Of a stretch of DNA of 60,733 bases, positions 2,821 through 57,432 are shown one piece after another. Numbering within the stretch: the stretch's first letter is position 1; every line of letters starts with the position of its first letter. The translations under genes were made by a program, and so were the position numbers. Source of the DNA: a virus; IMG/VR virus record IMGVR_UViG_3300018049_000020, positions 1 to 60,733 of that record, one strand, 5' to 3'. The notes beneath the pieces were generated by a model that was not told the origin of the DNA, ran no database searches, and saw only the letters and a program-made list of their open reading frames with translations.

Positions 2821-2828
2821 TATTTATG
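2821..2828 (-). promoter_or_regulatory. Late-promoter-like motif CATAAATA
   Basis: The motif matches the NATAAATA late-promoter consensus of T4-like marine phages. It lies 29 bases upstream of the 2052-2792 gene and downstream of a terminator hairpin, which makes it a credible start of a new late transcript. Confidence 0.5.
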
Positions 2829-6129: not shown

Positions 6130-6465
6130 TTAACTCCTAGTTACACCTGGCGTTATAATAGCTTGTCCTTCGACAACTCTACTAGTTTGACCACCAGAAC
6201 TTGTTATGTTTAAGTCATACAGATATCTGCCTGGATTTAGAGCAGTTGTTTGTGTATCTGTTAAAGACAAAGTGACCTGACCTGAAGCCTCTGAAATAGA
6301 TGTAGAAAATGTTGCACTTACTGAAGAAGACGTATATGTTTTTCTCATTTGTGCAGCTGCTGAATAACCTGATAGGTCTAAAACTGAACCATCAGAGTTT
6401 GTTACATCTACTGTAATGCTGAAGTCTGAACCTTGATCTATGTAAAGATTTGCTATAATTGCCAT
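6130..6465 (-). CDS. Predicted beta-sandwich virion protein
   Basis: A 111-residue protein built of alternating beta-type segments: NLYIDQGSDFSITVDVTN, LDLSGYSAAAQMRKTY, and LNPGRYLYDLNITSSGG. The pattern resembles small phage baseplate or appendage proteins with an immunoglobulin-like or BppU-like N-terminal fold; this is a pattern-level resemblance only. No Shine-Dalgarno is present. Instead TATAAATA ends five bases before ATG 6465, which places the expected late transcription start on the A of the start codon. Confidence 0.6.
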   Translation of the reverse strand: MAIIANLYIDQGSDFSITVDVTNSDGSVLDLSGYSAAAQMRKTYTSSSVSATFSTSISEASGQVTLSLTDTQTTALNPGRYLYDLNITSSGGQTSRVVEGQAIITPGVTRS

Positions 6466-6470
6466 ATTAC

Positions 6471-6478
6471 TATTTATA
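6471..6478 (-). promoter_or_regulatory. Late promoter TATAAATA abutting a start codon
   Basis: A perfect T4 late-promoter octamer with exactly five bases (GTAAT) between it and ATG 6465. In T4 numbering the octamer spans -13 to -6, so +1 would be the A of ATG. The resulting mRNA would be leaderless. Confidence 0.55.
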
Positions 6479-14100: not shown

Positions 14101-17100
14101 CTCTTACTTCTGGTAATTGTTCTGTGTCTTGCCAGATGTCTGTCTCTGGACTTAGTTTAACGTGACCAATAAATGCAAACACAGCGTATGGGTTAACATT
14201 TAATGACCTAGATGCCTTATTTTGATTAACAAATGATCTTTCTGTATATGGTAATGTGATAATATCACCAGACTTCTTATAGTTACGTGACAATGCTGAG
14301 TTAGCAATGATATCAAAGAACTGAGTATGGTGTTTAGGTCTTAATTGACCTAGTTTTGTATCGATAGCACATTCATAGTCTGGATGTGAAACATCACCAA
14401 TCTTATGACCTCTAAAGTTATCTACTAAGAAGCCTGATTTATATCTGTCAAATCCGTCTGCATCTAAAATTTGTTTTGATTGTGTATCTTTTTCTAATAA
14501 AGATAGTGCTGTAATTCTTTCAATGTTTGTAAGTCTTTGGTTTATTCTACCAATATCTTTCATCGTATATCTACGATGATCAAATTGTTTTAAATTGATT
14601 TCTTTTAAGTTTGATGTGTAAGCAGGTATGAACAATTCGAACATTTCAATTGCATCATCTAACTGATTTGGTTTTTGAGGACTAATATCAGGATAACCAA
14701 TAGAAACTTCAAACTTACCATTTCTAGTTAAGAATACTTTATCAATTCTAGGTACATAGAAATCTATATCTGCTGTCACTGAAGATGTAGGCATTGGACA
14801 TGAAATTGTTCCATTGTCGACATCGTTAAACACCCTTGATGTGTATACAAATGGTGCAGCTGTTACTTTTGTATTATCTGATAAGTTTAATGGATCGTTC
14901 TGATCATAAGCATTTGTATCATCATCTTGGAAATTAGTGCCAGGTAAAAAGTCTGTTGATGGTCTAAAGTCTACTGCATCTGATAATTCGAACTTACCGT
15001 CTGGTTCAAAACCACCTAAGTCTACTTTATTTGGTGAGTAATTTGGTATATCTTTGTACTCAACATCAGCACTGTTATAAGAATTTACTGAGTAGTAATC
15101 TCCTGTACCACCTCTACTAAACATGTCAAAGATAACAGTCACAGGATTGTTAGGTGCTGATCTACCTTGTTTTAAAACTAGTTTTGAGAAGTCATAATAA
15201 CCATCTCTTTGGCCATTGTCTAAGAAATAGTTGTTCTTAATGTTTGGTGAACCTGCACTTAAGTTTGATAGTACAGCGATACCTGAACTTGTTTGGCCAA
15301 CAATTGTCTCACCGTCAATGAAAGGTATATCATTTAAGTATACAAAGTATGATGTGTTTGTATCACCACCCCAATTGATCAATAATGCTCTTGCTGTTGA
15401 TGATTGACCTACAATCTCTTCTTTTAATGCAAAAGAACCTGAACTTATTGTTACAGTTGCGTTTGGTGGTGTTGCCTGACTATTTGAACCTGAAGTTGTG
15501 CCTGGAACTGCCTCTAAAACTGCATGTATTTTATAGACATCTGGTACACATAGATTCAATTCTTTGTGATCGTATGCAAGACCATAGAAAGGTTTATCAC
15601 TATTAGATGATCTAAATGAAACTGATCTGAATTTTTCTAAAGCTTTTGACTTTACAGCAGGTGCTGTTCTCTTAACAGTATAAGTTGCTAATATTTGAGC
15701 ACCTGATCCTGAATCACTGAATGTAACATCTAATGAAGTACCTGGTGTACCAAAAGTTACATCGTCTGCGACTAACACGTCACCTAATGCTACGACATCA
15801 CCAGTTCCGTTTAGTGATAATTTAGTAAATTGATATTTGTCATCACCAAAGTCTGAGAATGTTTCGTCTGACTCTTTTGTCAAAGTGATTGTACCATTTG
15901 ACATTGAGAACAGTCCTTGTTTTCTGACTTCTACTGTTCCTGTTGGTGTTACATCTGAAACGTAATCTCTAGGCCATGCAAATATATTTGATGTCTGATC
16001 TTGGTCTGCAAGTTTTGCTCTTTTTCTGATAACTGCTACTTGTGTTGCCGCTGAAGGTGTCACTGCACCACCAGCTGTTGTAACTACATTTAACGATGTA
16101 TCGTTAGTAACAACTGAAACTCTATGTTCTGTACCATTAACAACGATATGATCACCAACTTTTACTTCTTTAGTAAACTGTGAACCAACACCTTGTAATT
16201 CATTTGTTGAGCCATTAAATGTACCTAAACCAGATATTACTGATATATCATCTAATACTACATCGGCACTAAAGTCTAGTCCTACGCTAGCAGGTGAAAC
16301 TTGACCGACTGAGTGAGATTGACTTACATTAAAGACCTGAACACTAGTTGATGCTACTGCTGATGCAGTTCCCTTACCTCTAACTGATACATTATTACCT
16401 GATACAAATTGTCCTACTACATCATGTAGATAAATGTTATTACTATCGACATATGCAACAATACCTGTTGCGCCTGTAATATCGTCTGTTAGTTTATCAC
16501 CGTTAGCATATAATGTTGAGGTTGCTGTTGTAACTCCAACTTTAGTAAACATTTTAATATCAAATAGATATAATTGATATTCATCTGTAGCTGACTCATC
16601 AAAATGTCTAACTCTTGCAAAACCAATATTCTCTGCACTACCACTTAATGCTGATGCAGAAGATTTAGGTAGACTGTAAAGTTTGATTGGTTCGAAAGCA
16701 TTTGTTGAAGCTGAATCACCAATTTCTGGCATTCCATAAATGTTGTTGATTTTTAATTTATTACCTATTCTAACTGGTGTTGATGCGTTAGATAGTTCTG
16801 CTGTTGTTCTTGCTTTATTAATTGTTAGGTTTGATGTACCTGCTTTTTCAATTTCGTATCCTCTAACATAAGCTTTACCAGCAGATATCTGCATGATAAA
16901 CTTCTCTTCTTGTCCGCCTTCTGCTATTGGATAAAACCCTTTGTTATCTGAAGTTTTTAAATGTTCTCTGAAATTACTAGTAAATGGTCTTACAACAAAA
17001 TCGCCATTGGCATCAAAGGTTCTTCGTGCCATAGTATTTTCTATTTCAGAATAGATTGGTCTATTGATTGATAGTTCAATGATACCATTGTTAACTCTTG

Positions 17101-17985: not shown

Positions 17986-19509
17986 TTACATTTCAATGAT
18001 CAGTTTGATATCTTCAATCTGATCGGCTGCCCTTGACACAGGACCTCTATTCTCAACATAGAGAATATCACCAGTAAATCTTCTCATCTCTGGATGATCT
18101 GCATCTACACCAGCGGCATTCACTGAAGTTACAATTGAACCAGAAGCATTGATGTAAATATCATCATTGTTTTGGAACAATATAAACTCACCACCGCCAT
18201 TTGCTATCGGTTGATAACTTATAATATTACCTGACTTAGATACAACTCTACCAACTGCTGTTGATGCGTTGTTTGTTGTACTATCTGTTATAATATCATC
18301 TACTGATATACCTGAAGCACTACCAACTGTAATTCTATTTGTTACAGTCATTGTTGATAGTGTTGAAATAGCACCGTCTGAGTCTTGTAAAGGATTTTTA
18401 ATTAGACCAATTTGTCTAAAATCGTTGTCTGTTGGGAAATCACCTGAGCCTTCGCCAAACTCTAATCTTGAGTTTACTACTACGAAGTTACCGCCTAGTT
18501 CGTCAACTGGATTTGCACCATGACCACCAATTGGTGACATTACAACGTGAACTTCTGCACCTGAACCTGATGCTATAGGTGTAGCAGCTGAGTCATCTAC
18601 GATGTTTGCATCGATAGTATCTAATGATGCACGTCTGTAACCTGAACCGTATGATGATGAATCTTTAAAATATGCATCTACTAATTCACCTGAGTCAAAT
18701 GATAATGTTACAACAGCACCTGAACCGTCACCTTGGACTGGAATGTCACATGTGAATGTACTTGAACCTCCACTTGTCGCAGTATAACCTGAACCAGCAG
18801 ATTTAACAATATATCTAAACACTGCACCGTCAACCGCATCGTTTTCTACATCCCATTGAGCAGAACCGTCATCGGTTGCTGATGAACCGAATCCACCGTT
18901 TGTACCGATACCAGCAATTCCTGATTTAGCACCGAGAGTCTTTACAGGAATAAAATCGTTAGTTACAAATTTAATAACATCTGAGGCAGTAATTTGATAC
19001 ATAAATTTCCACATATATCCGTCTGAGGTAGTTTCAGGATCAGTGGTACTAACTGAAGTTGGTTGGTCTGTTGAATTAACGGGATTTACACCGCTATAAG
19101 GTGTTTTTAAACACTTATAGACTTTATATTCGTCTGTAATTATATAACCCTTACCATCAAACCAGTTCACTATTGAACCGTCTGAACTTGAAGGTACTGC
19201 TGTACCTACACCGTAATCGTCTCTATACTCGTCATATACTGTACCTGATGTCCAGTCATATCTTACAAGTCCGTGTGATACATCACCTGAAGAAACTTGT
19301 TTAAGAGCAATCATATTTGATTGTGCTCCTAATATTTCCTCTACTGAATTGTTTGGACTTGGTGGGTTATTATCGTCAATTGATGAATCATCAGCATCTA
19401 CCCATGCGTGTGATCTACCAATGAATATGTAATTTTTAGAATCGCTGAAATCTGCAACAAATTCTTTTGCATTGTGCGTTCTAAAATTCTCTAAAATTAT
19501 TGCTGCCAT
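17986..19509 (-). CDS. 8: Baseplate wedge protein gp8
   Basis: A 507-residue protein. The N-terminal third matches T4 gp8: KNYIFIGRSHAWVD corresponds to T4 FITFGRSEPW, followed by NSVEEILGAQSNMIALKQV and SDGYMWKFMYQI (T4 DGYVWEYLFEI). Residues beyond 200 are Gly/Ser-rich beta segments (IVKSAGSGYTATSGG) not found in the shorter T4 protein (334 residues). Gp8 is a dimeric wedge component next to gp7 and gp6. GAGGAG lies 12 bases upstream, and late-promoter motifs sit in the gap to gp7. Confidence 0.85.
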   Translation of the reverse strand: MAAIILENFRTHNAKEFVADFSDSKNYIFIGRSHAWVDADDSSIDDNNPPSPNNSVEEILGAQSNMIALKQVSSGDVSHGLVRYDWTSGTVYDEYRDDYGVGTAVPSSSDGSIVNWFDGKGYIITDEYKVYKCLKTPYSGVNPVNSTDQPTSVSTTDPETTSDGYMWKFMYQITASDVIKFVTNDFIPVKTLGAKSGIAGIGTNGGFGSSATDDGSAQWDVENDAVDGAVFRYIVKSAGSGYTATSGGSSTFTCDIPVQGDGSGAVVTLSFDSGELVDAYFKDSSSYGSGYRRASLDTIDANIVDDSAATPIASGSGAEVHVVMSPIGGHGANPVDELGGNFVVVNSRLEFGEGSGDFPTDNDFRQIGLIKNPLQDSDGAISTLSTMTVTNRITVGSASGISVDDIITDSTTNNASTAVGRVVSKSGNIISYQPIANGGGEFILFQNNDDIYINASGSIVTSVNAAGVDADHPEMRRFTGDILYVENRGPVSRAADQIEDIKLIIEM

Positions 19510-19528: not shown

Positions 19529-19547
19529 TATTTATAAACTATTTATA
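19529..19547 (-). promoter_or_regulatory. Tandem late-promoter motifs before gp8
   Basis: Two perfect TATAAATA octamers occur on the minus strand, at 19529-19536 and 19540-19547. The first is 19 bases from the gp8 ATG and the second overlaps the last codons of gp7. The pair is a strong candidate for an internal late start. Confidence 0.6.
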
Positions 19548-22500
19548 ATGCTGCTAGGGTTGAATTGGTAACTTTTGATGAAGAAACATAGGTAGAATGA
19601 GCTATATTAGTTCGTCTGTTCGCATATAGAGGTAATTCTGCTATATACATTAACCCTAATAGGTTATCTAACTGACTAATTCTTAGTCCTTCACTCTCGC
19701 TAGTTTCATCCAACATGAAACCTCCGCCACTTTCTAAAAGTATTCTATCACCAAAGTCTGGTTCTGTATTGATATTGTTTACAATATTTGATGCGTTGCC
19801 AGATTCTTGGTGGATATGATATGCTATCTTATAAGTTTGTTGATACGCAATCTTATTTAGTGATCTAAATGTAGACCCTATAGGAGCAAAACTATGTAAG
19901 TTACTACCTGAACCTAATCTTTCGTCTGTTATTGGATTGCCATCTTCAAAAATCATTCTATCACCATTTTCCATATAGAAGTATGGTTCGTACATTTCTG
20001 CCGATCTTTCAGTTACGAAATACTCTGGCATTTCTGGTACAGTTTCATCTTCTAATTCAACTACTAAACCACTTATGTCTTCATAACCACTTGTTGCTGG
20101 GTTGTATGAATCAGGATCATTAGGGTCACTTAATTCGTAAATCTTTGCATGATCTTCAAATACGATTCTTGGACCAACCTCATCTCTGTTTTGTGGTTCA
20201 TGGTTTAGATAGTTTCTTGGTTCTTCACTTCTAAAGAGATTGCCGTCTTCTAATGCTATTCTTTCATCTAAGAACTCTGCAAATTGGAACACTGTACCTT
20301 GATCTGAAGGTCTAGCACCAATTGGTGACACCGCATCTTCTTTAGTCATAATCAGATAGTCTCTATCAGTGTTGTATAAGTTCAATACTGATACTACGCC
20401 ATCTAATCTTGGTGATCTTTGATTTGATATTGTTATTTCTTCTGCAACTGGATCATGTGATATATTTTGATATTGTTTCTGTGATACAGGATCAATTGCT
20501 GAAATACCACTGTACCTCGATCTAAGTTTAGACTTAAGTACAGCACTAATTAATGTTCTTACTGAGTTTATATTTAAATGTCTGTTTCTATGTGACGAAT
20601 CTCCATACTCAGTTAATGGTTCTGTGATTGCGCCGTCTGTTCTTGGGTCTGTACCTGTTGTAGGTATGCCTGCTTCATCTAAGTTGATTTGCATTGCTAA
20701 ATCTTCTAACTCAGATGCTGTAGTATGGAATAATACTAATGTTTCTTTCTTAGTAGATGCTTTAGCCTCGAATGCCTGTTCATTTTCAATATAGTAACCA
20801 TCTTCTGTTAATATTTTGAACTTTCTTTGTTTTACATTGATAAGATTAGGGTCTTGACCTGTATCTAAGTAACCTAGTGTTGCATCATCTGGATCTGCAT
20901 CTTCTAATAATAAATGTTCTGAAGCATAAGTTGTAAGTAGTATAGTTGGTACGAATGTTGTATTCTGAATACCAAGTGTGTTTTTAGGATCGACTGTAAA
21001 TCTTCCGTCTCTATCGTCTTGTACGATGTATCTATCAAGTGCAACTTCACCAAAGAAAATGTGACCAGATGGATGGACTAAATCTTTAACTGCCGATCTA
21101 TACGCATTGATTGATTCACCAACTTTAATCACATATGAATGTGATTGATAGAATAGACCATCGTGTATGTTAGTTGTATCGCTAGATACATAACCTTTAT
21201 TGCCGAAGAAGTTATCGTTTATTACACCTTCACCAGCATATTCACCTCTTGCTTCGTATGGGTCATATCTCAATACTTCAAAGTATTGTCCGTTTGCATA
21301 ATCAATAAATTCGTTTTCAGCAAATGTACCACTTACATTTGTAAACTTAAGTAAATTTCTTTGTTCATCAAATGATATTACCTCACCTGTTGCACCAGAT
21401 TTTCTGCCAGTAAACGTTACACCTTTTGTTAAATCAGCTACAGCAGTTGGATTACCAATCAACATATTGTAATATGAATCACCGCCTAAAACTGCATGTT
21501 CATCAAAGTTATAACCTTGTGATGTGATTCTGATCTTGCCAACACCACCGACCTTAGATGACCAAGCAAATAGACTTGCACCTTCACCTGCTGTGACTGT
21601 TGATTGTTTAATTGTGCCTTCTGTACCAGAAGAAGAACCTGTTATGATATCTGAAGTTACAAAGTGACCTATATTAGATTCAGTCTTTTTAATTACAAGT
21701 CTTTTGTTCTTTGAATCAATACGTGATATAACACCGTTTGCAGTAGCAGCCTGATTGGTTACAGTTTCACCAACTGTAAAACTATCGTAGTTATCTACAT
21801 AAATGTAACCACCTGGAAATACTCTAGGTAGTGTTTGATATCCTGTACCACCTGAAGTAATTGCTATTCTTCTAATTCTCTGATCATTATCTGGATTATT
21901 ACCATCTTCGATCATGACAACTGAACCATTGACGCCAGTTGTTGTTTGTTCTAAAGTAACTCTAGTAAACTCTGATATTAATTCAACTCTTTCACCACCA
22001 GCAGGTGTTGGTGATGTGTCAAATACCACTCTATCTAAAAAAATTGTATAGTTTTGTCTGCTCTGTTCTATACCATCTACAAACACTTTAACTTGTAGAC
22101 CATTCAGTGCGATAGGTTTATTATTTAAATCTCTTGCACCTAAACCACCAAATGTAGTTTGACCAGCAGTTGCAGTAAATTCGTACTGATCAAATGCTGT
22201 AGCGTTTTCTAAAATAAGTTCGTCACCAGTAGCAGCTATTATCGCTTCTGCACCAGCACCCTCTGTACCTGCTTCTTCAAATACAATAATATCGTTTGCT
22301 GAATAACCTGTACCTGCATTTTCAATGTATATGTGTTCTATTGGACCTCTAGTCAATTCTGATACAGTTGCTACTGCATCTATTTCACTAGCATCTACTT
22401 TTGAACCTGTGAATCTAATTTGATCGTTTAGATCATACATTGATCCAACTCTTGCACGTTCAAATAATAACCCACCGCCCATCTCTGATTCGGTATTTGG

Positions 22501-23628
22501 GTTACTTTCTGTATAACCAGAAGAGGCATTTCCTGATTCGTATCTTAAACTACCTGAATTGTCTTCTAATTGAAAATAAGTGCCTGAGTCATCTTTTTTG
22601 ACTTGAGATATGATACCTGTTAAAGTACCTGTATAAATTGTGACACCATCTCTATCTACAAGTTTAACTTGTTTGTTTGGTTGAAATGTGCCTCTGTGTG
22701 TTCTGGAAATTGTAAGTTGATACTGTCTGTCTATTTCAGATATAATACCAACCTTTTCAACGATTGCTTCAGCAACTACTAAAGTTGCATCATCATCGCT
22801 GTATTGTAATATTTTGTCAGTCTCTTTTGGCACTTGGCCAACTGACATGATGACATTACATTGTCTTTCTTCTTCGTACTCTGACTCTGAAGCAAAGAAT
22901 GTTTCTTCTATAGGATATCTAACAGAAGAAGATTCACCATATAGAATTCTCATTAAGAATTGTATGGACTTTTCAGTACCTTTCTCTTTGTATAAAGTAC
23001 CTATGTTCTTTAATGTAAGTCTAGGATTTTGTGTGTCTCTCAGATTAAGAGACGGTATAAAATCTTTTTGAAAGTATTTTAAAAATGTTTCTAATGTTCT
23101 ATCAATATCAGAATAGTCTAGTAATCTATTTGATGCGACAATACTATTTTCTTTGTATGTTTTAACAACACCTGTTTGATTGCCTGATCTACCAACAATA
23201 GTTTCACCTACTGTGAAACCATTTCCTGATATTGTATCAACTAAAAATGTTTTATCATTTATAACTCTAATCTTAGCGATTGAACCACTAGATTGACCAT
23301 AAATGTATTCATCTTTAGTAAAAGGGTCTGATTGAATATCAGACAATGATGAGGCGTTGAGAAGTATCTTTGATGAGTCTGCTTCTGGATTGCCTGCAAA
23401 AGTATTCTTTTCAAAAAGGATGGCACCCCTTTCTTTCTGAGTGCCGTCCTCTAATCGAATGCCGTCTAGTGCTTGAATACTATCAAGCACTAGAATTTCG
23501 GACTCTAAGTACTCAAAATACGCCTCTAAAAAACTTTCAAATACAGGTGCATCTTCTCTTAAATGATCTGGTAAGAGAGATGGTAACCTCGTTGATAGTC
23601 TGTCATAGACGTGATTTTGATGAGACAT
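19543..23628 (-). CDS. 7: Baseplate wedge initiator gp7
   Basis: A 1361-residue protein, larger than T4 gp7 (1032). The start SHQNHVYDRLSTRLPSLLP with HLREDAPVFESFLEAYFEYL is characteristic of gp7 in T4-like marine phages. Around residues 500-545 there is an inserted beta module (VKVFVDGIEQSRQNYTIF, GGERVELISE). Repeated EDG and EDGNLF-type segments follow (LLEDADPDDATLGYLDTG, IALEDGNLFR, MIFEDGNPITDE). Gp7 nucleates the wedge with gp10, gp8, gp6, gp53 and gp25; the latter four or their genes are nearby. No Shine-Dalgarno is visible. Confidence 0.8.
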   Translation of the reverse strand: MSHQNHVYDRLSTRLPSLLPDHLREDAPVFESFLEAYFEYLESEILVLDSIQALDGIRLEDGTQKERGAILFEKNTFAGNPEADSSKILLNASSLSDIQSDPFTKDEYIYGQSSGSIAKIRVINDKTFLVDTISGNGFTVGETIVGRSGNQTGVVKTYKENSIVASNRLLDYSDIDRTLETFLKYFQKDFIPSLNLRDTQNPRLTLKNIGTLYKEKGTEKSIQFLMRILYGESSSVRYPIEETFFASESEYEEERQCNVIMSVGQVPKETDKILQYSDDDATLVVAEAIVEKVGIISEIDRQYQLTISRTHRGTFQPNKQVKLVDRDGVTIYTGTLTGIISQVKKDDSGTYFQLEDNSGSLRYESGNASSGYTESNPNTESEMGGGLLFERARVGSMYDLNDQIRFTGSKVDASEIDAVATVSELTRGPIEHIYIENAGTGYSANDIIVFEEAGTEGAGAEAIIAATGDELILENATAFDQYEFTATAGQTTFGGLGARDLNNKPIALNGLQVKVFVDGIEQSRQNYTIFLDRVVFDTSPTPAGGERVELISEFTRVTLEQTTTGVNGSVVMIEDGNNPDNDQRIRRIAITSGGTGYQTLPRVFPGGYIYVDNYDSFTVGETVTNQAATANGVISRIDSKNKRLVIKKTESNIGHFVTSDIITGSSSGTEGTIKQSTVTAGEGASLFAWSSKVGGVGKIRITSQGYNFDEHAVLGGDSYYNMLIGNPTAVADLTKGVTFTGRKSGATGEVISFDEQRNLLKFTNVSGTFAENEFIDYANGQYFEVLRYDPYEARGEYAGEGVINDNFFGNKGYVSSDTTNIHDGLFYQSHSYVIKVGESINAYRSAVKDLVHPSGHIFFGEVALDRYIVQDDRDGRFTVDPKNTLGIQNTTFVPTILLTTYASEHLLLEDADPDDATLGYLDTGQDPNLINVKQRKFKILTEDGYYIENEQAFEAKASTKKETLVLFHTTASELEDLAMQINLDEAGIPTTGTDPRTDGAITEPLTEYGDSSHRNRHLNINSVRTLISAVLKSKLRSRYSGISAIDPVSQKQYQNISHDPVAEEITISNQRSPRLDGVVSVLNLYNTDRDYLIMTKEDAVSPIGARPSDQGTVFQFAEFLDERIALEDGNLFRSEEPRNYLNHEPQNRDEVGPRIVFEDHAKIYELSDPNDPDSYNPATSGYEDISGLVVELEDETVPEMPEYFVTERSAEMYEPYFYMENGDRMIFEDGNPITDERLGSGSNLHSFAPIGSTFRSLNKIAYQQTYKIAYHIHQESGNASNIVNNINTEPDFGDRILLESGGGFMLDETSESEGLRISQLDNLLGLMYIAELPLYANRRTNIAHSTYVSSSKVTNSTLAAL

Positions 23629-24184: not shown

Positions 24185-26056
24185 TTAATAATTTGTGTTG
24201 GATGTAGAAGTGTATCCTACACCAGCACTACTCTCACCACTTGCGATGGTGTCTACTTCGCCGTCTACGTTTATATCATCGACACTGATATCAATTAGAG
24301 AACCTCTAACTGCAACAACATCGTTGCTAGAAGGTAGAACTGTGAAGTCGATTGAGGTATCACTATTGGTTGTACCAGTGATAGTGATGGCATCAATCGT
24401 AATCTTTCCTGTACCATAATCTATGGTACCTGCCTCGTAATCTTTTATAGTTCTAACACCAGAAGCTAAAACATATCTTCTGATCTTACCTGATCCGTCA
24501 TCATCAAAGAAATGATCGTTGACTGAATCGCCTTGTACTTTGAAACCAGATGATACTAAAATACCACCACCTGCTTTATTGTGTCCGTCATGAGGATGGT
24601 AGAAACCATTTCCAAATTTAATTTCTAATCCTTTTTGTTTGTTTAATTCTACCTTTTGAGATTTTCTCAATCTAATGTTTGTTGAGTTAGATAGAATCGA
24701 TCCCTCTGATTCATCAATTGCTTTGACTAATTTTGAATGTCTAAAGATTGAATCAAAGTTACTTAAATTTGTATTGTCGAAATTTACGATAGCAGCTCTA
24801 ACTACTGATTTCATTTCTCCAATTGAGAGTTGAGTAGCACGTGAATCGTATTTAAATACAGTTGTTACCAGAATCTTAACAATGTCTGCATCAACAATTA
24901 CTGGTTTAACTGTAACCATGTTTAATGCATTTAGTTTTTTGATAACATCTGCTTTTTCAAACTCAGACAAATAATCTGAGTTTTGTGGTTTAAGTGACAA
25001 GAAGACTTTACCATAATCAGGTGGATCGTTATCTTCACCACCCCAAACTGCAACTGCATCGGCGTTTGGATAGTATTCACTTACTTTTGCTTTATAGTCG
25101 TTCAATGTGACCAATCTGTTTTGTGATGTGTAGAATTTTGTTGCTTTAAATTTAATAGAATCTATTGATTCTTTTTCAGCACCACCTGTTGCTTCAGTTA
25201 CAGTTGTAACAGTAGCACTTATAAAACCATTGATTGGTTGTGTAAGTGTAAATCTTTTGGCACCCTCAGCATGTTCTAAATCAACTACTACATAAACTGC
25301 ATTGATGATATCACCATCTAATAGTTGATTACCAAGAACACCATCACCAAAATAAAACTCTACAAATCCTTCTTCGTTTTCTTGTGTATAAAAAACTTTA
25401 GATGATGAAGATATCGTAGAAATACTTTTAGCATCTACATACGTTTCTTCAACACCGTTTGAAATAACAGTGACTACTAATTTACTTTTATCAACTCTTT
25501 CATTTGATAAAACAAACTTTGAGTTTTTAATTTGTGAATCAAAAACAAATTGATCTGTTACGTATTGACCTTGAACAAGTTCTATATTATTCCAATTGAA
25601 ACTTTTATTTGATCTTGTAGGAGTGATTGATGATGTGCAAACAAAATTGTATGCTACATTGTCATAGATAGTTGTGAATTGTTGACCTCTTGATAATGTC
25701 ATATCGCTTGGTGTAGGGATTGTACCATCTGCGTTAACAACATTATCCATTTGCATATTGACATAAGCAGCTGATGCCTTCTCAGATGCAGGTACAAAAC
25801 CTAAATCTTTAGCACGTGATACAACGTTCTTTCTCAGTTGTGCTGAATCTAAGAACATTTCTGAAGCTGCTATGTTTGTATTGATTGCACCGATGTGAGA
25901 TGCATATGCTAACATGTCAATAAGAACTGACATGGTCGAACCTTCGAAGTTATAGTCTTTGAATAACTCTTGTCCTTTTAAATATGATTTAATATTACTT
26001 ACGATATCATCAAAATCTTGATCTGTTGTATTAATTTGTGAACTCTTTACTGCCAT
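24185..26056 (-). CDS. 6: Baseplate wedge protein gp6
   Basis: A 623-residue protein (T4 gp6 has 660). The N-terminus carries FDDIVSNIKSYLKGQELFKD, the phrase MSVLIDMLAYASHIGAINTN and MFLDSAQLRKNVVSRAKDLG, the family signature of gp6/gpJ-type wedge proteins. The middle has FYFGDGVLGNQLLDGD and LNDYKAKVSEYYPNADAVAV. Gp6 forms the continuous ring of the baseplate and interacts with gp25 and gp53. Its start overlaps the stop of gp25 as TAATG, so the two are coupled. Confidence 0.9.
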   Translation of the reverse strand: MAVKSSQINTTDQDFDDIVSNIKSYLKGQELFKDYNFEGSTMSVLIDMLAYASHIGAINTNIAASEMFLDSAQLRKNVVSRAKDLGFVPASEKASAAYVNMQMDNVVNADGTIPTPSDMTLSRGQQFTTIYDNVAYNFVCTSSITPTRSNKSFNWNNIELVQGQYVTDQFVFDSQIKNSKFVLSNERVDKSKLVVTVISNGVEETYVDAKSISTISSSSKVFYTQENEEGFVEFYFGDGVLGNQLLDGDIINAVYVVVDLEHAEGAKRFTLTQPINGFISATVTTVTEATGGAEKESIDSIKFKATKFYTSQNRLVTLNDYKAKVSEYYPNADAVAVWGGEDNDPPDYGKVFLSLKPQNSDYLSEFEKADVIKKLNALNMVTVKPVIVDADIVKILVTTVFKYDSRATQLSIGEMKSVVRAAIVNFDNTNLSNFDSIFRHSKLVKAIDESEGSILSNSTNIRLRKSQKVELNKQKGLEIKFGNGFYHPHDGHNKAGGGILVSSGFKVQGDSVNDHFFDDDGSGKIRRYVLASGVRTIKDYEAGTIDYGTGKITIDAITITGTTNSDTSIDFTVLPSSNDVVAVRGSLIDISVDDINVDGEVDTIASGESSAGVGYTSTSNTNY

Positions 26057-26475
26057 TACCTTACCCTACTTACGGTTAATTCTATGTTTTGTGCTCTTGA
26101 TGCATTTCTGATTGTATAAAAAATTCTAACATTCATCTCATTAGTATCTTCATCATTCAATCCAATTTTAACGTTGTAGACTCTTGGTTCGTACAACTCA
26201 ATCATTTCTGCTAATCTTTTAGCAAATTTTTCTTTTGATCTCTCAGTACGCAACTCAAATAGTTGATCTCTAAGAGAGGCACCAAAGTTTGGTTTAAAAG
26301 GTCTTTCAAATTTATTTGTTAAGACTATGTTACGGACCGATCTTTTAATTGCATCTGTATCTTTTTTAGTCATTATATCACCAGTAATTGGGTGAGCAAC
26401 AAAAAGAGCATCAAGATCAGAATATGATTCTTTTACTGCATTAACTTTGGCATTTGGTTTTAGATACTCGGTCAT
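26056..26475 (-). CDS. 25: Baseplate wedge protein gp25
   Basis: A 139-residue protein (T4 gp25 has 132) of the gpW/gp25 family. Diagnostic segments are DTDAIKRSVRNIVLTNKFER with PFKPNFGASLRDQLFEL, RLAEMIELYEPRVYN, and VRIFYTIRNA. It joins the wedge to the sheath. The gene has no Shine-Dalgarno at normal distance; TATAAATA ends five bases before ATG, predicting a leaderless late transcript that would also carry gp6. Confidence 0.9.
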   Translation of the reverse strand: MTEYLKPNAKVNAVKESYSDLDALFVAHPITGDIMTKKDTDAIKRSVRNIVLTNKFERPFKPNFGASLRDQLFELRTERSKEKFAKRLAEMIELYEPRVYNVKIGLNDEDTNEMNVRIFYTIRNASRAQNIELTVSRVR

Positions 26476-26480
26476 CTAAC

Positions 26481-26488
26481 TATTTATA
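26481..26488 (-). promoter_or_regulatory. Late promoter TATAAATA abutting the gp25 start
   Basis: A perfect late octamer followed by five bases (GTTAG) and then ATG 26475. The expected +1 is the A of ATG. The spacing is identical to those at 6471, 50272 and 56764. Confidence 0.6.
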
Positions 26489-32448: not shown

Positions 32449-32456
32449 TATAAATA
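32449..32456 (+). promoter_or_regulatory. Late promoter for the rightward block
   Basis: A perfect TATAAATA on the plus strand, 23 bases before the gp4 ATG (32480). It is in the 35-base divergent gap and is the probable start of the 32480-40645 transcript. Confidence 0.65.
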
Positions 32457-32474: not shown

Positions 32475-32482
32475 TATTTATG
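32475..32482 (-). promoter_or_regulatory. Late promoter-like CATAAATA for the leftward block
   Basis: On the minus strand CATAAATA lies 30 bases before the gp48 ATG (32444) and overlaps the gp4 start codon. With the opposing motif at 32449 it gives overlapping divergent late transcription. Confidence 0.5.
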
Positions 32483-35094: not shown

Positions 35095-35908
35095 AACTGA
35101 CTATCATATTCATGATGTCGACCTAGAAGAAGCATTTTACAATTGTATCAGTGTACCAAGACTCTGTACTTATAGAGATTTAAGTGATTGGGGATTTGGT
35201 ATAAGAGATTACACTGATCATAATCTATGTTTATTTGTCGAAGCACTTCTACGAGACATAGAAAACGAATGGGAACCTGGCGATCTCATATCCGCAAAAC
35301 AAAATCAGACCAAAGCATTTCACGCACTTAAGATCGGTTATCTAATTAACGAAATAAAGACAACTGGACTCTATTCGCCTATTCAAGGGTTGTACAAACG
35401 GCCTTTTACGCACTTCAAAGCACCTAAGTTGCCATCAACACAAGGAATTTACATACATCCAGGAACTGCTCGAGTATATGCAATCCGGCAGACACGTAAG
35501 TTTGACGAACCTGTGATCATTTGGGATAATACAGGTGAATTTTCACGTTTTAAAGAGTTAAATTTCAATGAATGGTTGAGTATGTTTAAAACGGAAAGTC
35601 TAGCAAGAAATATTTCTAATATTATCATCGAAATGCACGCTGATGAGTCAATTAGGGGTATTTTAGACACTTCCAAAGAAATTCGAGACTCCTATTTGCG
35701 TTCCAAGCCGATCCTTAGGGGTGACGTGAGATATAACATTCGTGAATTATTCGACCTCTCAGGCGAGACAGGAGGCGTTGTAGTCGAAACAAAGGGTACA
35801 TACGTCTTTAGTTTTGAAGATTTACGTTACTTTTTAGAATTACACCCCCAAAACAATAGAATAATAGACACGGAAAATTTTACGATCAGCATAAATAATA
35901 GCAAATGA
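35066..35908 (+). CDS. Conserved unknown protein, second of a tandem paralogous pair
   Basis: A 280-residue paralogue of the preceding gene: GLYSPIQG, IYIHPGTARVYAIRQ, EPVIIWDN, FNEWLSMF, IIEMHADES, VVVETKGTYVF and DLRYFLELHP. Divergence is high outside these blocks, so the duplication is old. The conserved His, Arg, Trp-Asp and Glu residues could form an active site, but I recognise no enzyme family. The stop overlaps the next ATG by four bases (ATGA). Confidence 0.65.
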   Translation: MSRLPSEEIRTDYHIHDVDLEEAFYNCISVPRLCTYRDLSDWGFGIRDYTDHNLCLFVEALLRDIENEWEPGDLISAKQNQTKAFHALKIGYLINEIKTTGLYSPIQGLYKRPFTHFKAPKLPSTQGIYIHPGTARVYAIRQTRKFDEPVIIWDNTGEFSRFKELNFNEWLSMFKTESLARNISNIIIEMHADESIRGILDTSKEIRDSYLRSKPILRGDVRYNIRELFDLSGETGGVVVETKGTYVFSFEDLRYFLELHPQNNRIIDTENFTISINNSK

Positions 35909-36501
35909 GTCTATTAAAGAGATTAGCTGAAGAAACACCTAGCGGATTGCGAAGACGATCAGCTGATGCCATGAAATGGCTGACGAAACGAATTCGAAGA
36001 CTAAAAATATCCTCAGATAGATTCTATACGAACACACGTCAAGGGACACAAAAAACTGCTAGACTTCTTGACGGTAGAATGTACTGTTTCTTTTACATAG
36101 CAAAGTATGAAGAAGTATTGCCTTACTATGATACTTTTCCATGCGTATTGATGATAGAGATGAACTATGCAAATAAGACTTTTCTAGGTTTAAACTTGCA
36201 TTACATACCACCTCGTTATCGTGCTAGATTGTTAGATGAATTATTCAAGTATACTAACAATCAAAACTACGATGAAACAACTCGTATACGTATGACTTAT
36301 AAAATATTAAGTAGCGTCACACGTATGAAATATTTCAAACCTTGTTTAAAGAAATATAGGATGGACCATATTCAAGGCACAGCAATGGAAATTCTGCCTG
36401 AATATTGGGACATAGTTGCAATGTTACCACTTGCACAATTCGAAAAAGATACAGTCACAAAAGTTTATGCAGACAGTTTAAAGGTATTAACATCATCATA
36501 G
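35905..36501 (+). CDS. Conserved T4-like marine phage protein
   Basis: A 198-residue basic protein. Recognisable blocks are GRMYCFFYIAKYEEVLPYYD, TFPCVLMIEMN, TFLGLNLHYIPPRYRARLLD, ETTRIRMTYKIL and EYWDIVAMLPLAQF. This pattern is widespread in T4-like marine phages in the same tail/head completion neighbourhood, but I cannot assign a biochemical role. The very basic N-terminus (RRRSADAMKWLTKRIRRLK) would suit nucleic-acid contact, and a gp2-like role at DNA ends is one speculation from the position near gp4. Confidence 0.6.
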   Translation: MSLLKRLAEETPSGLRRRSADAMKWLTKRIRRLKISSDRFYTNTRQGTQKTARLLDGRMYCFFYIAKYEEVLPYYDTFPCVLMIEMNYANKTFLGLNLHYIPPRYRARLLDELFKYTNNQNYDETTRIRMTYKILSSVTRMKYFKPCLKKYRMDHIQGTAMEILPEYWDIVAMLPLAQFEKDTVTKVYADSLKVLTSS

Positions 36502-41803: not shown

Positions 41804-41886
41804 AATCTATTTGTCCAAATCAACCACCAACGAAAGTATTTTCTTCCCTCACCATATGCAGCTGATTTAAGTTTATTGTAGATCAC
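41800..41886 (-). CDS. Possible 28-residue leader peptide between bS21 and GAPDH
   Basis: A GTG-started frame overlaps the bS21 stop as TAGTG and ends as ATGA on the GAPDH start. The product reads MIYNKLKSAAYGEGRKYFRW, then WLIWTNRL. It is basic and aromatic with three Trp. It fills the 82-base gap exactly, which suggests translational coupling of bS21 to GAPDH. TAGTG starts are used elsewhere here (gp59). Such a short frame could still be chance. Confidence 0.35.
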   Translation of the reverse strand: MIYNKLKSAAYGEGRKYFRWWLIWTNRL

Positions 41887-42119
41887 TATCTACGTCTATA
41901 ACCCTTTTGTTGAGACCTCTTAGCCTCTAACTTACGCTTTCTTTTGATAGCTTGATTCTTCTCGTTTCTCTTCACTGAAGGTTTGACATAATGTTCTCTG
42001 TCTCTCACTTCTTTGACGATGCCTTTCTTGTCACATAGTTTTTTAAATCTACGTAACATACGATCAAAAGGTTCAACGTTCCTAGTCTTAGGGTGTTGCC
42101 TTGGTTTTACACTTGTCAT
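41886..42119 (-). CDS. rpsU: Ribosomal protein bS21
   Basis: A 77-residue protein. [20 protein letters not shown], then [20 protein letters not shown], matches bS21 (bacterial: EPFxxALRRFKRxxEKxGxL, REFYEKPxxxRKRK). It ends in an Arg/Lys-rich tail. bS21 sits near the 3' end of 16S rRNA on the small subunit and influences initiation. Phage copies are known, including in SAR11 phages. Its own ATG lacks a Shine-Dalgarno and lies seven bases after a sigma70-like TATAAT, giving a predicted leaderless mRNA. It is followed by the metabolic gene GAPDH. Confidence 0.9.
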
Positions 42120-44926: not shown

Positions 44927-45160
44927 CTAGTTAAAAAAAGAAGAAAGAGACGCTCTCGTTGTTTTGCCTCTCTCTATTAGTTTAAGACCTTTTGCCTCTG
45001 CCTCTAGTTTCTCTTTAAGAGGAGTTGAAAGAAGTCTTTTTGCACCTTCTGGTTCTATGTTATTTGTTTCACATACTTTAAGTATGGCACTCATAACATC
45101 TGCCTTGTTTCCTATTAGTAGACGTTCTACTTGTTCTGTAAATTCTTTTTTGCCTATCAC
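44927..45160 (-). CDS. 33: Late-transcription co-activator gp33
   Basis: A 77-residue protein with a GTG start, 12 bases after AAGGAG. EFTEQVERLLIGNKADVMSA, ILKVCETNNIEPEGAKRLLS and LKEKLEAEAKGLKLIERG match the compact gp33 of T4-like marine phages (T4 gp33 has 112 residues). Gp33 bridges RNA polymerase and the gp45 clamp and works with sigma factor gp55 at late promoters. The late motifs in this window fit its presence. The short length limits certainty. Confidence 0.65.
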   Translation of the reverse strand: MIGKKEFTEQVERLLIGNKADVMSAILKVCETNNIEPEGAKRLLSTPLKEKLEAEAKGLKLIERGKTTRASLSSFFN

Positions 45161-50017: not shown

Positions 50018-50266
50018 TCAAATACCTTTTTGGATATCGTTAAGTATTTGTATTTGTTTTTGGATCATTTCTGAACGATTAGGCCAATAGATATAATCCT
50101 TGTCACTATCTTTCATTAAATTTTCCAATAGAGGTCTGATAAAGTTATCCATCTTATCAATAACTTCATTTGCTGTTGTTGTTTTTTCTACGATTTTAGT
50201 ATCTACAGAAGCAAGTTCTTCTGCATCCATAGCTGTAAAACCGAAATCGTTATATTCTATACTCAT
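50018..50266 (-). CDS. Conserved T4-like hypothetical protein
   Basis: An 82-residue acidic protein. MSIEYNDFGFTAMDAEELAS and LLENLMKDSDKDYIYWPNRS are conserved in T4-like marine phages, where it is a short protein of unknown role. No Shine-Dalgarno is present. TATAAATA ends five bases before ATG, so a leaderless late transcript is predicted. The motif overlaps the stop codon of the DUF2061 gene. Confidence 0.6.
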   Translation of the reverse strand: MSIEYNDFGFTAMDAEELASVDTKIVEKTTTANEVIDKMDNFIRPLLENLMKDSDKDYIYWPNRSEMIQKQIQILNDIQKGI

Positions 50267-50271
50267 ATGGG

Positions 50272-50279
50272 TATTTATA
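50272..50279 (-). promoter_or_regulatory. Late promoter TATAAATA abutting a start codon
   Basis: A perfect octamer followed by CCCAT and then ATG 50266. The spacing equals that at gp25, and its TAA is also the stop of the DUF2061 gene. Confidence 0.55.
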
Positions 50280-50803: not shown

Positions 50804-51135
50804 TTTGTAATCCTTAAATCATATTTATCTGGTTCTTGAAAAACTTTGTTGGTGTCTTCAAATCTACTTTCTTCGATTGTGTCCATCCATATGGTGAAAT
50901 CAGCGTCTATCACGTCTCTCATCTTTGGTAGTGGACAAACAAAATCAAATATACCGAAGTCATAGAAAGACATGCGATATGCCTGTCTAAGTCTTCCTTC
51001 ATCCGAGAAATCCCAATCGTCTGCTTTTTCTCTTAACGTATCAGCATTAAAATGCGGAATTAAAAAGTGATAGGAAAGTTCTCTAGCTAGAGTTGTCTTT
51101 CCCGATCCTGGTAACCCCATGATCAATATTTTCAT
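50698..51135 (-). CDS. Adenylylsulfate-kinase-like P-loop kinase
   Basis: A 145-residue protein. The Walker A motif is GLPGSGKTTLARELSYHFLI. HFNADTLREKADDWDFSDEG, RLRQAYRMSFYD, and FVCPLPKMRDVIDADFTIWM, DTIEESRFEDTNKVF follow the APS-kinase pattern (NADxxRxxxNDWDFSxxGRxRQAxRM). It probably phosphorylates an adenylylated or sugar substrate. After residue 109 the frame continues over the nucleotidyltransferase start, giving a 34-residue tail unlike the family. ATG 51135 lies inside the previous gene and has no Shine-Dalgarno. Confidence 0.8.
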   Translation of the reverse strand: MKILIMGLPGSGKTTLARELSYHFLIPHFNADTLREKADDWDFSDEGRLRQAYRMSFYDFGIFDFVCPLPKMRDVIDADFTIWMDTIEESRFEDTNKVFQEPDKYDLRITKWIGLNQLHNSLEDFNRGTKGIQSYLKEQLPKLVK

Positions 51136-56371: not shown

Positions 56372-56758
56372 TTAGCCAACATTAATTGCAAAGATTTTCT
56401 TTTCATCTTGTTCTACTTTATTTAAGTCAAAGTTAATAGAGACACCACAACCACATGAAGCCTCTTCTTTAGGATTTATAAATTTAAATACTTCATTGAG
56501 ACCTTCTTTGCGAAAGTCGAGTGTCATTCCTAGTAAATAGGGTAATGAGAGTTTGTCTATAACGAACTGCAATTCGCCGTAATCTACTACAACGTCTCCG
56601 TCAGCATCAGGTCTATCGCTAGTAGAATCAAAAATATACTCAAAGCCAGCGCAACCTCCGCCTGTAATCCCAAGCCGTATATAACTAAATCGTTCTTTTT
56701 CTTTTTTCGAAAGAAGTTTTTGAATAGCTTCATCTGTTACCTCTATGATAGTTTCCAT
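56372..56758 (-). CDS. A-type Fe-S cluster carrier (IscA/ErpA-like)
   Basis: A 128-residue protein. Cluster ligands C36 (TGGGCAGFEY), C102 and C104 (EASCGCGVSINF) are all present. EVTDEAIQKLLSKKEKERFS is the usual start. It receives and delivers Fe-S or Fe to client proteins in the cytoplasm. Length exceeds bacterial IscA (107) by a C-terminal charged tail (DLNKVEQDEKKIFAINVG). No Shine-Dalgarno; an AATAAATA motif ends five bases before ATG. Confidence 0.9.
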   Translation of the reverse strand: METIIEVTDEAIQKLLSKKEKERFSYIRLGITGGGCAGFEYIFDSTSDRPDADGDVVVDYGELQFVIDKLSLPYLLGMTLDFRKEGLNEVFKFINPKEEASCGCGVSINFDLNKVEQDEKKIFAINVG

Positions 56759-56763
56759 GTAGG

Positions 56764-56771
56764 TATTTATT
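56764..56771 (-). promoter_or_regulatory. Late-type motif AATAAATA abutting the Fe-S carrier start
   Basis: It matches NATAAATA and overlaps the stop of the carbamoyltransferase C-half. Five bases (CCTAC) separate it from ATG 56758, the same spacing as at 6471, 26481 and 50272. Confidence 0.5.
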
Positions 56772-57432
56772 CATCAAAGCGTTTGTCTTCTTTCATTTCC
56801 TCGACATGAAGGTCTTCTTCATCGGCAGTTAGGTCTACACGTAGATGAGATTTATCTCTAATACATTCGTAAGGAATGTAGAAGTCTTGGTCTTCAGGAA
56901 TGTAGAGGTGATTGATCATTGATCTGTTACATGTATCGATTGCATCGTACACGTTCTCAACGATTGCTTCACCACCAAGATTGAATGATGTATTGAATAT
57001 AATTGGTACACCAGTTCTCTCGTAGAAACCTTTGATAAGGTTGTAGTAATTTGGATTTTGTTCTTCTGTAACAGTCTGCATTCTGCATGTGTTGTCAGCA
57101 TGAACTAAAGTTGGAATATCTTCTAGTGCTTTCTCTTTACACTGAATAGCAAAGGACATCCAAGGTGACTCAGGTAGTTGTAACATTTCAAAGTAATCAT
57201 TTGCATGTTCAGCCATAACTGTACAAGCAAAAGGTCTGTAATGTTCTCTCTTCTTAATTGTGTTAACAATGTTCTTAGCATTTGGATGTCTAGGGTCAAA
57301 TAGAATAGATCGGTTACCTAATGCTCGAGGTCCCCATTCTGAATGATTCTGAAAGATTGCAACGATTTGCTCATTGTCAATGAGTTGGTCTAAAACTGGT
57401 TCGAGTGTTCTATGAATCTGAGTATTAAGCAT
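56767..57432 (-). CDS. Carbamoyltransferase, C-terminal domain half
   Basis: A 221-residue protein matching the C-terminal domain of the NodU/CmcH family: AIFQNHSEWGPRALGNRSIL, FDPRHPNAKNIVNTIKKREH, YRPFACTVMAEHANDYFEM and IIFNTSFNLGGEAIVENVYD. Normal family members are single chains near 550-600 residues; here the domain is a separate gene that starts inside the stop region of the N-terminal half (ATGCTTAA overlap, eight bases). The two products probably assemble. Its tail is acidic. Confidence 0.85.
   Translation of the reverse strand: MLNTQIHRTLEPVLDQLIDNEQIVAIFQNHSEWGPRALGNRSILFDPRHPNAKNIVNTIKKREHYRPFACTVMAEHANDYFEMLQLPESPWMSFAIQCKEKALEDIPTLVHADNTCRMQTVTEEQNPNYYNLIKGFYERTGVPIIFNTSFNLGGEAIVENVYDAIDTCNRSMINHLYIPEDQDFYIPYECIRDKSHLRVDLTADEEDLHVEEMKEDKRFDE

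Follow-up and report, generated by a model that had tools for sequence, protein, structure and literature searches.

The window, a stretch of 60,733 bases from an IMG/VR virus record, carries on its minus strand the gene for the baseplate wedge protein gp25 (Pfam GPW_gp25, E 6.3e-15; phrog_261), and only five nucleotides separate the start codon of this gene from an octamer of the type known from the late promoters of phage T4. Three further genes of the same strand show the same arrangement (Table 1). These are a tail fibre assembly gene matching phrog_1084 and phrog_3304 (its match to PF23926 was below the cut-off of that family), a gene for an 82-amino acid protein for which no family match was found in PHROGs or Pfam and whose relatives are encoded by 331 stretches in IMG/VR, and a gene for an Fe-S cluster carrier (Pfam Fe-S_biosyn, E 1.1e-14). 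A motif scan of the window located on the minus strand all four NATAAATA strings that the preliminary description had reported at five nucleotides from an ATG, each octamer being TATAAATA or a close variant of it. Inspection by eye agreed with its statement that none of the four genes has a Shine-Dalgarno (SD) sequence at normal spacing; the AAAGGA found near gp25 lies upstream of the octamer. In the case of the Fe-S carrier gene, the TAA within the octamer is also the stop codon of the upstream open reading frame (56767-57432).

With T4-like baseplate genes (gp25 and others) together with a phage-encoded ribosomal protein bS21, the window has the gene content by which we recognize pelagimyophage-like viruses. 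It also encodes a gp33-like regulator, and no tRNA was found in it. A 105-kb contig, G001, encodes all four genes with 100% protein identity to those of the window.

Table 1. Predicted late promoter octamers and associated genes in the window
Feature	Position	Strand	Remark
Late promoter octamer, leadered class	2821..2828	-	28 nt before ATG 2792
LtfC-like / L-shaped tail fibre assembly gene, predicted leaderless	6130..6465	-	
Late promoter octamer TATAAATA	6471..6478	-	5 nt before ATG 6465
Two tandem late promoter octamers	19529..19547	-	gaps of 19 and 30 to baseplate gene 17986-19509
gp25 baseplate wedge gene	26056..26475	-	ATG 26475-26473 = predicted +1 and start codon
Late promoter octamer TATAAATA	26481..26488	-	5 nt before gp25 start
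Late promoter octamer, leadered class	32449-32456	+	gap of 23 to 32480
Late promoter octamer, leadered class	32475-32482	-	gap of 30 to 32444
Late promoter CATAAATA	35890..35897	+	7 nt before gp2; near-leaderless
gp2, DNA end protector	35905-36501	+	downstream of CATAAATA
Phage-encoded ribosomal protein bS21	41886..42119	-	PF01165 E 1.1e-16, phrog_21469
gp33-like late promoter transcriptional regulator (gp55 co-activator)	44927..45160	-	phrog_254 E 9.3e-15
82-aa gene, predicted leaderless	50018..50266	-	
Late promoter octamer TATAAATA	50272..50279	-	5 nt before ATG 50266
Late promoter octamer, leadered class	50822..50829	-	18 nt before ATG 50803
Fe-S cluster carrier gene (Fe-S_biosyn family), predicted leaderless	56372..56758	-	
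Late promoter octamer AATAAATA	56764..56771	-	5 nt before ATG 56758

The motif NATAAATA occurs 17 times in the window (15 on the minus and 2 on the plus strand), which is no enrichment in comparison with shuffled sequences (average of 23.5). Eleven of these occurrences are linked to a start codon, with gaps of 5 (four times), 7, 18, 19, 23, 28, 30 and 30 nucleotides, one of the two 30-nucleotide gaps belonging to the upstream member of a tandem pair of octamers; the remaining six are intragenic or lie farther from starts. The tandem octamers are 11 bp apart, and the preceding open reading frame (19543-23628) reaches into the upstream octamer. The baseplate gene that follows them is leadered and bears an SD, thus providing an internal contrast class. 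The shared spacing of the four genes had been considered improbable by chance, and this was borne out: for 11 motifs with spacings assumed uniform over 0-50, the probability of at least four at exactly 5 is 3.5e-5, and that of at least four at any one spacing is 2.2e-3. The window by itself is insufficient to settle the question of spacing, and the decisive support comes from its relatives.

Motif-to-ATG spacings were surveyed across 4 Mb of DNA, made up of 295 related loci and the window, by counting non-redundant sites and those ATGs that open at least 50 codons; these sites are not independent, many being related by descent. For NATAAATA, 121 of 910 sites were found at gap 5, in comparison with 4 at gap 4, 22 at gap 6 and 11 at gap 7, and each larger gap up to 44 had 3-12 sites, with the exception of gap 41 (29 sites). 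This second peak corresponds at least partly to an internal ATG of the 82-aa gene (codon 13, in frame), 41 nt past the octamer in the window. A flat distribution in relatives had been named in advance as a result that would refute the proposed class of leaderless late mRNAs, and a sharp peak at five nucleotides was found, set against 20 permuted heptamers that reached at most 13 sites at gap 5. Since the loci had been fetched through the four genes, the count was repeated without their relatives as a control for this bias, and the peak persisted (77 sites at gap 5, 6 at gap 4 and 10 at gap 6); the named genomes described below served as a second control. The gap-5 sites outside the four families are spread across many gene clusters; the four query families themselves also contribute 13 sites at gap 6 and 9 at gap 7.

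The variant CTAAATA was at gap 5 in 46 of 417 sites, and GTAAATA and TTAAATA together in 2 of 1543. These data indicate that A or C is accepted as the second base of the motif, and G and T are not. Among the late octamers of these phages CTAAATA is frequent, for instance in loci L149, L151 and L020. In 21 further IMG/VR contigs, taken from the survey loci, of at least 64 kb and previously unsearched (L005 was left out), the exact pattern of motif, five nucleotides and ATG matched 116 times, as against 9 for a reversed-pattern control, some of these contigs being near-duplicates. Among them, contig G020 had no exact-pattern match, and G023 and G026 were not above the reversed control.

The conservation of this arrangement was then quantified upstream of the four gene families, counting the distinct upstream sequences of relatives over all loci. 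All 17 distinct upstream sequences of gp25 relatives have the motif, with A or C as second base, exactly five nucleotides before the ATG, and the DNA farther upstream, as judged by eye, varies among groups of relatives. Of 17 gp25 sequences compared, nine show the N-terminus M[A/T][D/E]xxKPN from this ATG, a tenth deviates in the final positions of this consensus, and the remainder begin with other residues at an equal distance to the promoter. A gap of at most 8 was observed in 33 of 45 upstream sequences of the tail fibre family (exactly 5 in 19, 6 in 10 and 7 in 4), in 41 of 52 of the 82-aa family (exactly 5 in 38) and in 31 of 79 of the Fe-S family (exactly 5 in 23), the last being the weakest of the four with regard to a near promoter. 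Two variations on this theme were seen among loci selected by hand. In one group (L107, L110, L113 and L118), the tail fibre gene is preceded by two octamers 25 bp apart, the upstream one of which may sit within a hairpin (AGAGGTCTCC ... GGGAGACCTCT). In locus L244, GTG replaces ATG at the predicted +1 of the Fe-S gene (AATAAATAGTAATGTG).

A near promoter and an SD sequence tended to exclude each other among these orthologues: an SD was found in 2 of the 122 upstream sequences with a near promoter and in 25 of the 71 without one. The 82-aa family accounts for most of this exclusion (0/41 with vs 10/11 without a near promoter); the corresponding values were 2/33 vs 5/12 for the tail fibre family and 0/31 vs 10/48 for the Fe-S family.

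The same organization was present in cultured phages. In the Pelagibacter phage HTVC008M, for which the deposited annotation (198 CDS) was used and the motif was sought within 80 nt of starts, 34 CDS had a motif, and their gaps were bimodal: a close group of 16, with 12 at 5 and 4 at 6-8, was separated by an empty range (9-17) from a distant group of 18 with gaps of at least 18. SD-like sequences preceded 2 of the 16 close-motif genes vs 16 of the 18 distant-motif genes, and were present in 106 of the 164 genes without the motif. In both SD-like close cases an AGGA lies directly at the octamer, and would thus be upstream of +1. The exact pattern matched 13 times in this genome (2 for the reversed control), and 12 of the 13 matches fall on annotated CDS starts. 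The 12 genes with a gap of 5 start at 6280, 7562, 11972, 18943, 19456, 31132, 49760, 75559, 75830 and 142360 and, on the minus strand, at 16007 and 18916. The genes with a close promoter include those for gp2, gp25, the tail tube cap, the tape measure protein, CsgF and a head-closure protein. Two of them, gp2 and the head-closure gene (L297:18916 on the minus and 18943 on the plus strand), are divergent, with 26 nt between their start codons, and each has its own late promoter at gap 5, in head-to-head orientation.

In Mosig, a second cultured pelagimyophage, 9 matches were found at gap 5 and at most 3 at any other gap from 0 to 20; over all these gaps, the total of motif-ATG matches was 39, vs 36 for the reversed pattern. 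Eight of the 9 gap-5 matches lie within the stretch of annotation read, and 6 of these 8 are annotated starts. The gap of gp2 is exactly 5 in Mosig, as it is in HTVC008M, and that of gp25 is 8. The methylophage Melnitz, whose host belongs to OM43, had 5 exact-pattern matches (control 0), with 3 of the 5 on annotated starts; 27 of its 33 promoter-linked genes have gaps of at least 18, and 23 of these 27 are SD-like. This phage is thus an intermediate that bears the trait weakly. An adenylate/guanylate cyclase gene located after curli-related genes has a gap-5 promoter in both HTVC008M (11972) and Melnitz (54825).

Promoter-linked genes were also compared across phages by means of crude, greedy open reading frame calls. 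With these calls, gaps of at most 8 were found in 15 of 24 genes in HTVC008M, 17 of 35 in contig G002, 12 of 25 in G004 and 5 of 10 in the window. By the same crude calls, none of 28 promoter-linked genes of T4 had a gap below 12, and none of 25 of the cyanophage Syn9 a gap below 20. Matches to the exact pattern and to its reversed control numbered 2 and 2 in Syn9, 2 and 1 in S-PM2, 2 and 3 in P-SSM4, 2 and 2 in KVP40, 3 and 2 in MED4-213, 0 and 0 in phiM12, 4 and 0 in T4, and 5 and 1 in an Ochrobactrum phage. So far as the annotation was read, none of the four T4 matches starts an annotated gene, one lying inside mobB and three opening at most 12 codons; within the same scope, both Syn9 matches are intragenic, and none of the five in the Ochrobactrum phage falls on an annotated start. 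The possibility that the trait is common to all T4-like phages was rejected on the evidence of T4, Syn9, S-PM2, P-SSM4, KVP40, phiM12 and MED4-213. The trait is specific to the pelagimyophage-like lineage.

With regard to the transcription machinery, a search of 11 records identified a gp55 homologue in 9, G001 and Syn9 among them, and none in the 60-kb window fragment or in G008. The gp33-like protein was identified in both the window and HTVC008M, with phrog_254 as the match in the two cases. In Mosig, the match to the gp55 homologue (MT647606, 20731-21246 on the minus strand) contains one TGA and one TAG, which may be a sequencing error or a real interruption.

The preliminary description had placed the T4 late octamer at -13 to -6, and this numbering is backed by PMC2988020, which in the passage available to us speaks of 'A(-13) in place of T'. 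With the octamer starting at -13, a gap of five nucleotides places +1 on the A of the ATG, as had been proposed. The spacing of the motif thus sets the start codon at the predicted +1 or a few nucleotides from it, and the close-motif genes of HTVC008M and the orthologues with a near promoter have almost no SD upstream, as would be expected of leaderless messages.

On these grounds we consider it probable that the genes of this class are served by T4-type late promoters that have their +1 on the first base of the AUG, giving leaderless late mRNAs. Late promoters dependent on gp55, gp33 and gp45, of the form [ACGT][A/C]TAAATA, would be placed 13 bp upstream of the AUG; transcription would begin on the A of the start codon and yield a late mRNA without a 5' leader, and translation would start at the 5'-terminal AUG without an SD. 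Other late genes of the same genomes have this promoter at least 18 nt upstream and mostly an SD-bearing leader, with the result that each phage would produce two structural classes of late mRNA. It has to be noted that the +1 position is carried over here by analogy from T4 to the polymerase of another host.

The base before the start codon is consistent with this reading. It is a pyrimidine in 175 of 189 members of the 5-nt class vs 667 of 1524 SD-led ATGs; in HTVC008M this holds for 11 of 12 gap-5 genes vs 91 of the remaining 186 annotated starts, which include one at the first base of the record. A pyrimidine before a purine is the usual preference at transcription starts, and we know of no translational preference for a pyrimidine before ATG. 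Leaderless mRNAs strongly prefer AUG as start codon, and the class comprises 190 ATG, 3 GTG and 1 TTG starts; this preference does not discriminate, because ATG predominates as strongly in HTVC008M at large (190 ATG, 7 GTG and 1 TTG of 198 CDS). In the leadered class, position +6, where an A would be expected, is A in 53% and G in 22% of cases (n = 137), only a mild signature. A corresponding sigma-70 signature was sought on the host side: in two SAR11 genomes (400 kb, 369 crude starts), the distance from TATAAT to ATG showed at most a weak bump at 6-9 nt.

Among the alternatives, the one that survives best, which we nevertheless hold to be improbable, is that the promoter at the AUG is real and starts there, but synthesis of the protein depends mostly on longer transcripts reading through from upstream promoters, the start-codon promoter only boosting the downstream genes of the operon. 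The late genes are arranged in long runs on one strand, separated by short gaps, and read-through RNAs could also carry the genes with a near promoter. Moreover, the Fe-S orthologues without a near promoter are mostly also without an SD (38/48), and coupling to the upstream gene may serve them. This explanation is difficult to reconcile with the 82-aa family, in which the SD is absent whenever the promoter is near and almost always present when it is not, and with the divergent gp2/head-closure pair of HTVC008M, where no same-strand gene lies just upstream. The exact conservation of five nucleotides would also make little sense if only the downstream genes counted.

A slightly smaller probability attaches to the possibility that the host polymerase of these phages uses a different +1 and the RNA begins 1-3 nt before the AUG, which would result in tiny leaders instead of none. 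The existence of gaps of 6-8 is in agreement with this possibility, whereas the position of the peak at exactly 5 and the pyrimidine favoured before the A fit initiation on the A itself. Since gaps of 6-8 in some genes would leave leaders of 1-3 nt, 'effectively leaderless' is a safer term for the class than strictly leaderless.

We consider it very improbable that UAAAUA-N5-AUG acts as a translation-initiation signal in the RNA, substituting for the SD, instead of as a promoter located at the start. The motif does adjoin the starts and excludes the SD, as such a signal would; on the other hand, the same octamer, with the same tolerance of bases, is found at least 18 nt before mostly SD-led genes, a distance typical of the promoters of T4 and Syn9, and its position is bimodal. 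In addition, 7 of the 11 upstream sequences of the 82-aa family that have no near promoter contain no motif within 60 nt, and the pyrimidine at -1 corresponds to a preference of transcription starts. Finally, a chance association in an AT-rich genome with few sites, which the unenriched motif count of the window, its any-spacing probability and the all-gap total of Mosig (where the spacing alone stands out) might have suggested, has a negligible probability and was ruled out by the relatives through the flat permuted-motif and the reversed-pattern controls.

Like the T4 late promoters, which depend on gp55, gp33 and gp45 and have the sequence TATAAATA, the promoters described here combine this octamer with gp55 and gp33 homologues and with downstream structural genes. 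In T4 at least 12 nt separate the promoter from the ATG, and this interval mostly contains an SD, whereas here a large class has its predicted +1 on the ATG; CTAAATA is also accepted here, unlike in T4. The cyanophage late promoter reported for S-PM2 and Syn9, NATAAATA, is the same degenerate octamer according to the passages of PMC2984593 at hand, and Syn9 has a gp55 homologue; its gaps are all of at least 20 nt, unlike those of the start-proximal class.

Leaderless messages are likewise known from phages. The cI mRNA of lambda is an example. PMC5312081, in the section available, attributes to Brock 2008 the statement that phage transcripts 'are often leaderless' and describes the late promoters of phiKZ as TATG, with the G as transcription start site. 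As with leaderless messages generally, translation would start here at a 5'-terminal AUG. The known cases differ from the present one in that phiKZ has its own multi-subunit polymerase and lambda cI is a single repressor gene, whereas the class described here would depend on a gp55-type sigma factor and covers many genes of a lineage. The pelagimyophages (PMP) of PMC7029224 belong, as far as its accessible text goes, to the same phage group as HTVC008M. That text reports that late promoter prediction 'was unsuccessful in PMP genomes', and its available parts contain no mention of a start-proximal placement of promoters. Late promoters placed at the start codon were not found described for these phages in the open-licence literature. 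Both leaderless mRNAs and late promoters of the T4 type are familiar; their fusion into a class shared across a lineage is, as far as can be seen, not.

The ribosomal protein bS21 (PF01165) was found in 9 of 19 records, namely HTVC008M, Mosig, Melnitz and six IMG/VR contigs, and all nine exceed the reversed control for the exact 5-nt pattern or, in the case of Mosig, show the gap-5 peak. Ten records lack bS21. Among these, T4 and the Ochrobactrum phage are above the control in raw numbers, though not at annotated starts so far as these were read, and the other eight exceed it by at most one; for S-PM2, P-SSM4, KVP40, MED4-213, phiM12, G005 and G006 the comparison is one of pattern counts. Among the 21 further contigs, which are fragments, 11 encode bS21; six contigs with 5-8 pattern matches lack it, and G026 carries bS21 with 3 pattern matches vs 3 in the control. 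None of 31 phage records with a relative of the HTVC008M bS21 is named a cyanophage.

Published work bears on this point. In the passages seen, the core genes of pelagimyophages are said to include those for bS21 and peptide deformylase (PMC7029224), and bS21 is said to help hide the anti-SD in Flavobacterium (PMC9976891). The bS21 of HTVC008M enters E. coli ribosomes, and GFP synthesis in vitro falls to about 5%, a low value that, according to the authors, may also reflect incompatibility with E. coli ribosomes (PMC6375957, likewise consulted in excerpt).

It is conceivable, if doubtful, that the phage bS21, at the anti-SD end of the 16S rRNA, takes the place of the host protein, and that initiation moves in this way from host messages led by an SD towards phage messages with a 5'-terminal AUG. 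Against such a link, the records with bS21 are largely of one lineage, Melnitz has bS21 and yet mostly SD-led late genes, and the same phages that show the 5-nt class retain SD-led late genes. Shared descent accounts equally well for the co-occurrence of bS21 and the pattern. The finding nevertheless suggests a testable reason for the carriage of bS21 by these phages.

For pelagimyophage-like viruses, the analysis provides the late promoter together with its placement rule and the genes concerned, and it makes the sharp prediction that RNA 5' ends fall on the A of the AUG. The phages affected are T4-like viruses that infect the commonest bacteria of the ocean, and the arrangement, found in many of their late genes, would leave no room for the usual landing site of the ribosome. 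A promoter and a translation start fused in a single 16-bp element would be economical for compact genomes.
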